Positions 61,232 through 63,727 of a stretch of 64,000 nt of DNA are shown here, one piece after another (the stretch's first letter is position 1; every line of letters begins with the position of its first letter). The DNA is taken from positions 310,001 to 374,000 of the forward strand of contig NZ_LRFG02000002.1 of assembly GCF_001641755.2 (NCBI RefSeq). The letters run 5' to 3'. The translations under genes were made by a program, and so were the position numbers. The notes under the pieces were generated by a model, which was not told where the DNA came from, ran no database searches, and saw only the letters and a list, made by a program, of their open reading frames with translations. The stretch is from Microbulbifer flavimaris (GTDB lineage: Bacteria; Pseudomonadota; Gammaproteobacteria; Pseudomonadales; Cellvibrionaceae).

Positions 61232-61798
61232 ATGAAGAAAATTGCCATTTTCCTGTTCGCCTCACTGCTGGGCGCCACCGCCCAGGCAGCCGAGTATGTG
61301 ATCGACACCAAGGGCGCCCATGCCTTTATCCAGTTCCGTATCAAGCACCTGGGCTACAGCTGGCTGTATGGCCGTTTCGACGACTTCAATGGCTCTTTCC
61401 AGTATGACGAGAGCAAACCCGAGGACTCCTCCATCAATGTGAATATTGATGTGAGCAGCCTCAACAGCAACCACGCCGAGCGCGACAAGCACCTGCGTGA
61501 CGAGGACTTCCTGTACGTGGAGAAGTACCCCACCGCCACTTTCAAGAGCACCAGCTACGAGCCACTGGAAGATGGTAAAGGCAAATTGACCGGTGACCTG
61601 ACCCTGCGCGGCGTCACCAAGCCGATCACCATCGACGTCACCCACGTTGGTGGCGGCAAGGATCCCTGGGGCGGCTTCCGTCAGGGTTTCACCGGCTCCA
61701 CTGAGTTCAAGCTGAAGGACTTCGGCATCGACTACGACCTGGGTCCGGCTTCACAGACCGTGGAGATGATTCTCGACGTGGAAGGTATTCGTAAGTAA
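61232..61798 (+). CDS. yceI: YceI family periplasmic protein
   Basis: A protein of 188 residues with a signal peptide (IAIFLFASLLGATAQA) and a lipocalin-like barrel that binds isoprenoid quinones in structural studies. Marks are the opening YVIDTKGAHAFIQFRIKHLGYSWLYGRFDDF and SSINVNIDVSSLNSNHAERDKHLRDEDF. It is periplasmic and probably partners the b561 gene just upstream. Strong AAAGGAG ribosome site. Base-induced expression is known for E. coli YceI; here it is unproven. Confidence 0.94.
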   Translation: MKKIAIFLFASLLGATAQAAEYVIDTKGAHAFIQFRIKHLGYSWLYGRFDDFNGSFQYDESKPEDSSINVNIDVSSLNSNHAERDKHLRDEDFLYVEKYPTATFKSTSYEPLEDGKGKLTGDLTLRGVTKPITIDVTHVGGGKDPWGGFRQGFTGSTEFKLKDFGIDYDLGPASQTVEMILDVEGIRK

Positions 61799-61824: not shown

Positions 61825-61850
61825 AGCCCGGCACTTGCCGGGCTTTTTTG
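61825..61850 (+). terminator. Rho-independent terminator after yceI
   Basis: AGCCCGGC-ACTT-GCCGGGCT followed by TTTTTG, 26 bases after the yceI stop. The stem is perfect over 8 bases. Confidence 0.93.
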
Positions 61851-61934
61851 TGTTTGGGAACAATAGGTAACGGCGGCCAGCGCGCTTCTCCTCAGAGGCT
61901 CAGTAGTCGGGATGAAGCCGACCTCTTGGGCGGT

Positions 61935-62040
61935 GAAGCACCGGGTTCCAGTATCTCGAAACGCTGTGAATACGTCCCTGTACGCTCCGTCGGCGGCGTC
62001 CCTGCCGCCGACGGTTCGAGATACTGGAACCCGGTACTTC
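61935..62040 (-). repeat. Palindrome-embedded hairpin element, copy 1
   Basis: The outer arms 61935-61960 and 62015-62040 are 26-base inverted repeats with one mismatch; they meet in a core of 54 bases (61961-62014). Read on the minus strand the core starts CCGTC, folds as CCGTCGGCGGC-AGGGAC-GCCGCCGACGG, then continues AGCGTACAGGGACGTATTCA and ends GCGT. The core matches copy 2 from end to end, although the arms of the two copies are unrelated. With the core removed, the arms would be one long palindrome. Confidence 0.85.
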
Positions 62041-62169
62041 CCCTTATATTCTGACCGAAGGCGCTCAAAAGCGAATTACCTGACTTTCAAATGTCACTTT
62101 GATTTTTTAGTTGGCTTCAGGGCGGCTGAGCTGAAGCAAGGCAAAAACACTGGATGCGAAGGGCAAGTG

Positions 62170-62260
62170 CTTGGCTTGGCGTTTTAAAACCTTCTGCACC
62201 AGGGATGGTGCAGAGGAGCTACAGGGAGGTATTCATGCGTTTTTAAAACGCCAAGCCAAG
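62170..62260 (+). repeat. Palindrome-embedded hairpin element, copy 2
   Basis: The outer arms 62170-62189 and 62241-62260 are perfect 20-base inverted repeats. The core (62190-62240, 51 bases) starts CCTTC, folds as TCTGCACC-AGGGAT-GGTGCAGA, continues AGCTACAGGGAGGTATTCA and ends GCGT. It is the same element as copy 1, in the opposite orientation, 129 bases apart by nearest core edges counted from 62015 to 62240. The stretch 61851-62308 has no gene. Confidence 0.85.
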
Positions 62261-62308
62261 TGGTTGCCCGCCACCAAAGGCTGGACCTGGCAACCACGTT
62301 CAAAGGAG

Positions 62309-63727
62309 TTATGCACTAGCCCGACTCGGCTCCGGTACGCCCACCGCAAAGCGCGCAATCCCGTACACAGCGAGACCCGCCAGAATACCCGGCATGCCCT
62401 CGTAGATATGGCTGTGCCAGCCCACCCAACGCCACAGTAGCGCCACCGCGAGCCCGACCAGGCTCATCAGGATATAAACACGCTGTGTTGGTCGACCACC
62501 CAGGGCAAGTACGATCAGAACCGGGGCAAAGGCGGAAGCCAGGGACGACCAGGACATCACCACCAGGCTGAAGACACTCTGTTGATTCACAAGCGCCCAA
62601 ACTACCGCCGCCGCGGTGATAGCCACCGTGGTCAGTTTCAGCACCCAGGTTTTTTCCGTGCGCTGCGGGTGAATGTCGTGGGTAATGGCCGCAGAGCAGC
62701 TGAGCACCAGGGAATCTGCCGTGGACATGGTGGCTGCAAATACCCCCGCCAGAATCAGGCCCACCATCACCGGGGATAGCAGTTCCATCGCCATCATCGG
62801 CAGCGCCAGCTCCGCATCAAAGCTACCTGCATCGGTCAGCATGATCCGCGCCAGCATACCGACGCCGGTGGCCATGAAATAGAAAGCAGTGAACCAGAGG
62901 TAATACCAGATGCGCGCATGAATCATACGGTGATGGGATTCGAGCGCCATAAAGCGCACCATTACATGGGGCTGACCGATCACCGACAGGCCGGCAAACA
63001 GCCAGCCCACCGCAAACAGCACACCGCCCGCAAGCCCAGGCAGCAGCATATTGTCCGGATACCAGTCCAGGAAGCCGTCAACCTGACTCATGGACTGCAC
63101 TGCAGCGCCGATGCCGCCGACGGACTGCGTCGCCACTACCAGTAGCGTTCCCATGGCCACAATCATCACGATGGATTGTGCCGCGTCGGTCCAGATAGAG
63201 GCTCGAATACCGCCCGCCAGACAATAGGCGGCCACGATGATGCCGCCGATCACCGCCCCGCTCCAGATGGGCAAGTCCAGCAACACATACAACGCCTTGC
63301 TACCCGCCACCAGCTGGGCGCTGGCATAGGCCAGCAGGAAGATCAGAGAAAGCACCCCCGCGAGGCGCTGCCAGTAAACAAAGCGGGGACCGGTCCAGCA
63401 GCTGATCACCCCGGCGTAGCTGGATTCCCCGGTCTTGTGCGTGGCACGACACAGGGACTTGTGCACCCACAGCGAGCCGAGAAAATCACCCAGGATCCAG
63501 CCCACCATCAACCACACGGACGCGAGGCCGGTAGCGTAGGTGTACCCGATGACACCAATAAACATATAACCACTGTTATTGGTGGCGACGGCGGAGAGCC
63601 CCACCAGGAACGGGGAGACATCCCGGCTGGCAAGGTAGTAGTCCTGCTTGGTGCCGCGGCTTTTCAGATAGGAGCTGACGCCGATGGCGGCAAACATGGC
63701 GAGAAAAAACAGAAAACTGGCGAGCAC
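62309..63727 (-). CDS. Sodium/solute symporter (SSS, PutP-like)
   Basis: A permease of 472 residues with about 13 helices. The family core is visible: YYLASRDVSPFLVGLSAVATNNSGYMFIG, then GGIRASIWTDAAQSIVM, and the second Na+-site region FAATMSTADSLVLSCSAAI. Members import proline, pantothenate, sugars or other solutes with Na+. The substrate is not readable. GTG start with AAGGAGAG upstream. It runs in the same direction as the partial gene upstream. Confidence 0.9.
   Translation of the reverse strand: MLASFLFFLAMFAAIGVSSYLKSRGTKQDYYLASRDVSPFLVGLSAVATNNSGYMFIGVIGYTYATGLASVWLMVGWILGDFLGSLWVHKSLCRATHKTGESSYAGVISCWTGPRFVYWQRLAGVLSLIFLLAYASAQLVAGSKALYVLLDLPIWSGAVIGGIIVAAYCLAGGIRASIWTDAAQSIVMIVAMGTLLVVATQSVGGIGAAVQSMSQVDGFLDWYPDNMLLPGLAGGVLFAVGWLFAGLSVIGQPHVMVRFMALESHHRMIHARIWYYLWFTAFYFMATGVGMLARIMLTDAGSFDAELALPMMAMELLSPVMVGLILAGVFAATMSTADSLVLSCSAAITHDIHPQRTEKTWVLKLTTVAITAAAVVWALVNQQSVFSLVVMSWSSLASAFAPVLIVLALGGRPTQRVYILMSLVGLAVALLWRWVGWHSHIYEGMPGILAGLAVYGIARFAVGVPEPSRASA

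Follow-up and report, generated by a model that had tools for sequence, protein, structure and literature searches.

A probable YPAL-type mobile hairpin repeat in Microbulbifer, with co-evolving arms and paired apical loops that resemble CsrA sites

The RU-2/YPAL repeats of Yersinia and Erwinia, the core sequence of which is printed in Table 1b of PMC2759123 (the part of that paper used here), are described in the YPAL passages of a review (PMC2229807) as inserting at or beside dyad symmetries with variable target duplications of 3–26 bp, and have been proposed, according to the same passages, as stability elements of mRNA 3′ ends. The relevant portion of PMC9029176 gives the Rfam family Ysr224 (RF02770) as responding to temperature and as one of the most prevalent small RNA (sRNA) annotations. 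TwoAYGGAY RNA (RF01731) is known from the human gut, Gammaproteobacteria and Clostridiales (PMC2864571, in the extract drawn on here) and has been proposed to bind CsrA on the basis of a motif match (PMC4333381, likewise in extract). REP sequences are defined, in the portion of PMC3733652 that treats them, by GTAG at one end of a 20–40-bp palindrome. Here we describe an element that we file as a broad YPAL-type mobile hairpin repeat, distinguished by its co-evolving arms, its strand-specific constraint and its paired CsrA-like sites.

The window, a 64,000-nucleotide stretch of Microbulbifer flavimaris DNA, holds two inverted copies of one hairpin element, flanked by a YceI-like gene and a convergent symporter gene (Table 1). 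An earlier note on this DNA had reported two palindromes with a common core in opposite orientations, and both are present where it placed them. Each copy is a long hairpin that carries two small apical hairpins, A and B, with loops around GGGA, and the common core (TACAGGGA.GTATTCA and an AGGGA-loop hairpin) lies on opposite strands in the two copies. Folding the four strands of the two copies gave z values of −6.9 to −10.5 relative to shuffled sequence, and in both copies the strand that carries GGA in these loops (the GGA strand) was the more stable (−80.1 versus −73.9 and −66.0 versus −57.3 kcal/mol); in the minimum-free-energy fold of copy 2, hairpin B is not closed on its GGGA loop. The arms do differ from copy to copy, as the note had proposed, but they are not wholly without similarity: three other places in the genome match core 1 and its left arm at 83–85% over query positions 1–93 or more, and copies have in common the inner arm motifs TTTCGAAA and GGGAC and the outer motifs GGCGGC / GAAGGC.

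Table 1. Features of the two element copies and their neighbours in the window. The ends of copies 1 and 2 are approximate; those of copy 1 are placed by analogy with GTGGCGG...CCTTC of other copies.
Feature	Position	Strand	Basis or remark
YceI-like protein gene, upstream neighbour	61232..61798	plus	PF04264, E 5e-46
Intrinsic terminator of the YceI-like gene, before copy 1, outside the element	61826..61849	plus	Sequence reading; conserved in G021
Element copy 1	61927..62045	minus (GGA strand)	R1 match 61950-62025 minus, 68.3 bits
Copy 1 arm	61932..61963		Pairs with 62012..62043, 32 nt, 91% complementary
Copy 1 hairpin B, TACAGGGACGTA, GGGA loop, CsrA-site-like	61971..61982	minus	Sequence reading and family conservation
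Copy 1 hairpin A, 11-bp stem, AGGGA in loop	61987..62014	minus	Sequence reading and fold
Copy 1 partner arm	62012..62043		Pairs with 61932..61963
Element copy 2	62157..62275	plus (GGA strand), inverted relative to copy 1	R1 match 62179-62251 plus, 52.4 bits
Copy 2 arm	62161..62189		Pairs with 62241..62269, 29 nt, 90% complementary
Copy 2 hairpin A, loop AGGGAT	62191..62216	plus	Sequence reading and fold
Copy 2 hairpin B, TACAGGGAGGTA	62220..62231	plus	Sequence reading
Copy 2 partner arm	62241..62269		Pairs with 62161..62189
Sodium:solute symporter gene, convergent neighbour	62309..63727	minus	PF00474, E 2e-49

By eye, the element shares with YPAL/RU-2 and Ysr224 an ANGGA-loop hairpin, GAGCC, TACATGGATGTA and TTTACGGCGTC, in the same order, and like YPAL/RU-2 it is interspersed and intergenic, with a core inside a long imperfect hairpin. 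Compared with YPAL/RU-2, the copies in Microbulbifer are short (133 bp for those with sharp borders, versus 167–168), their long arms vary between copies, and the family has a far wider host range. None of 17 own-genome loci reached the Ysr224 cut-off of 70 (best, 34.5 bits; window copy 1, 30.9). Among 18 loci outside Microbulbifer only one, from Pectobacterium (L122), passed it (73.3 versus 70), and a strict Rfam search of those 18 loci returned an RNA-family match at the element, to Ysr224, in L122 only, which leaves the other hosts' copies there without a family name. Ysr224 is modelled on the non-GGA strand. TwoAYGGAY RNA is likewise a pair of hairpins with AYGGAY-type loops set on one stem; against its cut-off of 43, the only match among the 17 own-genome loci scored 36.4 bits (L037) and the 18 other loci gave none, and the parts of PMC4333381 and PMC2864571 that concern it do not describe it as a mobile repeat. 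The CsrB/CsrC/RsmX-Y-Z decoy RNAs resemble the element in their paired GGA hairpin loops, but they are single sRNA genes with many sites in the accounts drawn from PMC4333381 and PMC4383904, whereas the element is a dispersed repeat with two. REP or GTAG palindromes are also short, palindromic, mostly intergenic and sometimes arranged as inverted pairs; the unit described here, at 133 bp, is 3–6 times longer, has two apical hairpins and comes from a genome with no Y1 transposase match, and by eye window copy 1 contains GTAG on neither strand.

The window core is not a chance pattern, since TGAATACNTCCNTGTANNNN had 20 exact matches in the genome against none for the reversed control, and a covariance model built from 71 sequences (R1) found 50 places in the same genome (G000) at E 0.001 or better. 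The earlier suggestion of a small, multi-copy and apparently mobile element is supported. BLAST of the genome with core 1 and core 2 returned 23 and 11 matches, respectively, totals that take in the query and the arms within the window. The close relative G021 has 47 R1 places, and numbers among congeners run from 0 to at least 125 per genome, the high values being lower bounds because no more than 127 candidates were scored in any one genome. Across 38 genomes, own genome included, 29 have an R1 match at E 0.001 or better and 22 the exact core pattern, with no reversed-control match in any of the 38. A class-wide R1 scan with stricter filters (E 1e-5 or better) found matches in 35 of 185 genomes, again with our own counted. 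Among the matches listed, named hosts with copies accepted by either the model or the arm filter include Pectobacterium, Stenotrophomonas, Marinobacter, Pseudomonas, Idiomarina, Methylotuvimicrobium, Luteimonas and Halomonas. This hairpin-repeat family is widespread in Gammaproteobacteria. The 172 exact-pattern copies collected, which include apparent chance matches in other phyla, were reduced to 137 by removing 28 whose arms were weak and 7 that were widely spaced.

Some copies depart from the simple form or turn up in unusual settings. Tandem copies lie about 120–160 bp apart at three loci (L083, L125 and L135), and the first two neighbours in L125 have different arms; six others (L043, L052, L048, L104, L158 and L162) have an additional hairpin beside hairpin B or insertions within hairpin A. 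A relative of the Pectobacterium copy, about 82% identical to it over 109 bases, occurs in near-identical copies on enterobacterial plasmids, among them those of Escherichia and Citrobacter (L322 and L323), where, in both regions opened, it adjoins an iron-containing alcohol dehydrogenase gene with IS26 near. It has matches in 5 of 5,426 E. coli genomes, and the 16 plasmid records with a match comprise 5 from Klebsiella, 5 from Citrobacter, 4 from Escherichia, 1 from Shigella and 1, weak, from Halomonas. Marine-type copies also occur in metagenome bins labelled Klebsiella pneumoniae (L170, L182 and L184), labels that look doubtful.

The earlier note had read the core as a unit inserted at the centre of palindromes that it targets or creates. 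The genome G013, also from Microbulbifer, has five copies at unrelated loci that stay near-identical through arm, core and arm, from ACTAAAAAGG to GTAGTA, after which identity ends sharply; two further copies of a subtype in that genome have the same shared unit and abrupt ends. A selection by both end motifs gave 14 copies of this subtype, each at its own site, in four genomes. Every one measures 133 bp over the same span; the 3′ end has TAGTA in all 14, and the 5′ end has TACTA in 12. As in MITEs, these units are short and carry no gene, and they have sharp common ends with short terminal inverted repeats. In support of movement of the whole unit, a genome of another species (G003) has the flanks of one G013 locus without any of it: TAACTCTGA stands on either side of the insert at the filled site, and TAACACTGA occurs once at the empty one. 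The resulting 9-bp target duplication, which has this empty-site support, is found at 1 of the 14 sites, and the other 13 examined show no duplication of 6 bp or more. G003 yielded no clean empty site for L345 or L348, and L344, L346, L349 and L350 had no match within the G003 stretches compared; for copies of G000, the possible empty counterparts in G011, G005, G002 and other genomes had diverged too far for borders to be seen. The mobile unit is thus almost certainly the whole hairpin, arms included, as observed for the subtype with sharp borders. For that subtype, insertion into pre-existing palindromes is refuted: near-identical copies carry core and arms together, orthologous arms show changes on both sides, and the one empty site found lacks the arms too, an outcome that the note had named in advance as contradicting its model. 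Nor does a RAYT transposase, the mover suggested there, fit the distribution of the repeat. The Y1_Tnp profile (Y1/RAYT transposase) has no match in G000 or G021, which hold 50 and 47 copies, and G031 has 49 Y1_Tnp matches yet no copy, so on this evidence the element is not RAYT-linked. In a Chromatiales genome, a group II intron (RF02001; L117:7394-7560) lies about 7 kb from an element copy.

In 48 copies (46 from Microbulbifer and 2 from order-level relatives) the complementarity score of the two arms had a median of 22 and a minimum of 11, compared with a median of 7 (95% at 11; highest, 27) for arms combined across different copies and 6.5 (95% at 9; highest, 25) for 335 genomic control segments; the left arm paired best with its own right arm in 43 of the 48. 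The copies sit between inverted arms that differ from one to the next, as the earlier note had anticipated for their flanks. Between G000 and G021, ten orthologous copies provide 312 stem pairs, of which 228 are unchanged, 42 have changed on both sides and still pair (Watson–Crick, or G–U on the GGA strand), 22 have a one-sided change and still pair, 14 and 5 are broken by one-sided and two-sided changes, respectively, and 1 has a gap. When the partner arm was slid by 1–3 columns, 13–20 both-sided changes were counted, with 3–10 of them pairing. In window copy 1, five both-sided and two one-sided changes among 32 pairs all preserve pairing, and none is broken. The count leaves out window copy 2 (its arms are replaced in G021), L004, L007 and L029 (G021 has a different or opposite-orientation copy), L032, G000 copies without a located place in G021, and the second copy at L020, which has one both-sided change kept, three one-sided kept and three one-sided broken. 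A larger tally of 23 pairs (485 unchanged; 100 both-sided kept and 14 broken; 37 one-sided kept and 62 broken; 20 gaps) was set aside because it mixes true orthologs with replaced copies and reads G–U on the wrong strand. In 71 diverse sequences, 88.3% of cells pair, compared with 61.8% after shuffling and 31–48% after sliding, and the covariation score is 0.625 versus 0.176; the number of pairs with any both-sided change in this set (16 of 19) is not above that in shuffles (mean, 15.0; 98 of 500 as high). Given the both-sided changes between two close species, the arms are co-evolving structural parts of the element, and because they change in step and keep pairing they come to seem unrelated when different copies are compared.

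Part of this change may come from fold-back copying or from conversion between copies, since 18 of the 42 kept paired changes are transversions and two copies (L293 and L309) differ by a block of several adjacent paired changes while their stem base and core agree. The orthologs L026 and L255 have common arms and different core subtypes, and such core swaps could be explained by gene conversion between copies. In G104, the core is flipped between perfect arms in 3 of 13 copies. In G104 (L352-L363) the element is also part of a larger repeat, in which there are additional ANGGA hairpins (gcggtgcagggatgcaccgc); at the G021 loci orthologous to L007 and L029 it occupies the same intergenic place as in G000 in the opposite orientation; and the ortholog of the L020 locus in G012 (L217) has, by eye, similar ends and long arms around another apex, TAAACAGCCTCATCGGCAATCG, with no GGA hairpins.

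The two strands of the hairpin are not equivalent. At stem pairs 8–17, chosen after the whole-stem counts had been seen so as to avoid conserved mismatches at the stem base, G–U pairs fall on the GGA strand rather than the other strand by 38 to 9 in 145 Microbulbifer copies (p 2e-5) and by 54 to 7 in 102 copies from elsewhere (p 4e-10), giving 92 versus 16 variable-stem wobble pairs overall, in counts for which the copies are not all independent and orthologs are included. The rest of the stem leans in the same direction (inner pairs, 13:6 and 16:5; outer pairs, 210:2 and 59:19). So do copies in each of the four gene contexts, counted over pairs 3–17: convergent (25:3), divergent (9:2) and the two co-directional ones (10:2 and 27:6). 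This agreement speaks against a mutation bias linked to transcription. Folding gave the GGA strand greater stability than its complement in 123 of the 145 Microbulbifer copies and 77 of the 102 others; for upstream control segments, divided into two slightly impure groups, the same strand was the more stable in 56 of 139 and 39 of 99. With wobble pairs mostly on it, the GGA strand seems to be the one that works in folded, single-stranded form, a reading that we consider very probable. The wobble asymmetry would be expected alike from RNA and from single-stranded DNA.

Loop A, absent from every search pattern, contains GGA in 127 of the 137 filtered copies; several of the 10 exceptions are misfolds that still carry GGA, and copies without it include L170 and L173. 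Among 75 distinct R1 hits, GGA is present in loop B in all 75 and in loop A in 69. The 24 hits that lack the exact search pattern all have GGA in loop B, about nine of them with a different stem, and the variant stems that keep it include TGCA/TGCA, CCCA/TGGG and CACA/TGTG. Most copies were found with a pattern that included loop B, and R1 itself rewards GGA, so this is no blind test for loop B. The CsrA consensus derived by SELEX is RUACARGGAUGU, with ACA and GGA invariant and GGA in a loop (in the section of PMC4347634 that reports it). The common form of loop B, UACARGGAUGU, is that consensus without its first base and includes both invariant motifs. The element thus has the features of CsrA sites, with GGA in paired hairpin loops, variable stems and the ACA–GGA consensus, and a CsrA gene is present in the genome. 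CsrA or RsmA is, on this sequence likeness, a possible main ligand of the GGA-strand hairpin. We keep that reading tentative because the orientation of neighbouring genes speaks against it and Ysr224 is modelled on the other strand. In the open-licence literature, we found no work that joins YPAL-type repeats with CsrA.

Gene context was read from crude ORF calls for 158 of 247 copies, after removal of 34 with a short flank, 29 with no ORF and 26 inside a predicted ORF. By these calls, and with no control for chance in intergenic DNA, 138 of the 158 copies face a gene stop on at least one side and the other 20 lie between divergent genes. Co-directional neighbours read the GGA strand in 26 cases and the other strand in 46 (p 0.024, again on crude ORF calls), and a smaller orientation count gave 17 versus 21, with no bias. 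Gene stops are nearer on the other-strand side (medians of 44.5 versus 87 nt), which was the nearer in 42 of 66 convergent pairs. No conserved promoter-like block was seen upstream of the start of the GGA strand.

We propose, as the probable explanation, that a YPAL-type repeat moves as a whole hairpin and that its GGA strand is a folded single strand with CsrA-like loops. The mobile unit would be the entire hairpin, about 120–135 bp in Microbulbifer with its arms, and the GGA strand would work in folded form, most likely as RNA, with a stem of roughly 30 bp that ends in a pair of small hairpins; the loops of both read ANGGA, the signature of CsrA/RsmA sites. The strand would be transcribed by read-through from neighbouring genes, one CsrA dimer could bridge both loops, and the copies may act as dispersed CsrA decoys or as 3′-end elements. 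The arms would need only to pair, and so could drift by paired changes through selection, perhaps with fold-back copying.

Two other readings, each unlikely, assign the structure a different role. The GGA strand might fold as single-stranded DNA and serve as substrate for a recombinase or transposase of a kind other than Y1, which would cut it, move it and recognise the loops in place of CsrA. A strand-specific fold, the fixed ends of the 133-bp units and the cores flipped inside perfect arms in G104 would all suit such a process, and G–T wobble is better accommodated than A–C in DNA too; this reading does not, however, predict the match to the CsrA consensus, and the G000 and G021 genomes lack Y1_Tnp matches. 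Alternatively, the repeat might be a stability hairpin of mRNA 3′ ends and nothing more, placed beyond the stop codon and seen by RNase III or exonucleases, with loops that matter little. The very stable folds, the gene stops that face most copies, at medians of 44.5 and 87 nt (on the crude calls and without the intergenic control noted above), and the YPAL proposal in the review passages of PMC2229807 favour this role, which nevertheless leaves unexplained why GGA is kept in two loops on varying stems and why the constrained strand is the one less often read from neighbouring genes.

The remaining explanations are less probable and concern how copies change or spread. Purely mutational homogenisation, in which fold-back template switching copies arm onto arm without selection, would account for the adjacent paired-change block and the share of transversions, but it predicts no difference in wobble between strands, and the GGA loops are conserved; the strand asymmetry counts against it as a sole cause, an explanation we regard as improbable, and it may act together with selection. 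More doubtful still is a SINE-like element copied through RNA and reinserted, often at terminators, by a reverse transcriptase of the host or of a group II intron. A constraint on one strand that resembles that of RNA, the variable target duplications given for YPAL in the review passages and the single 9-bp duplication here would agree with it, whereas nearly all the sites examined lack any duplication of the size scored. The RAYT-driven insertion of a core into the centre of existing palindromes, as the earlier note had it, we consider very improbable. It would explain arms that differ between copies, the one ortholog that keeps its arms around another core subtype and, by eye, the similar ends and arms around another apex at L217; it runs against 133-bp units that include the arms, the empty site, the paired arm changes and the absence of Y1_Tnp.

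A bolder version of the whole-hairpin reading, which we offer as a speculation unlikely to hold in full, is that a selfish repeat has spread tens to more than 100 paired CsrA/RsmA docking hairpins through the genomes of Gammaproteobacteria, so that CsrA titration would track copy number, which ranges among congeners from 0 to about 125. On this view the arms would be neutral, self-correcting spacers that preserve the fold and prevent recombination between copies, and spread through an RNA copy may occur. If the loops bind CsrA, the copy number of the repeat would be a fast-evolving dial on a global regulator. Even without CsrA, the family supplies natural cases, in the hundreds, of arms that evolve as pairs with a strand polarity, of use in separating selection on RNA folding from fold-back mutation.
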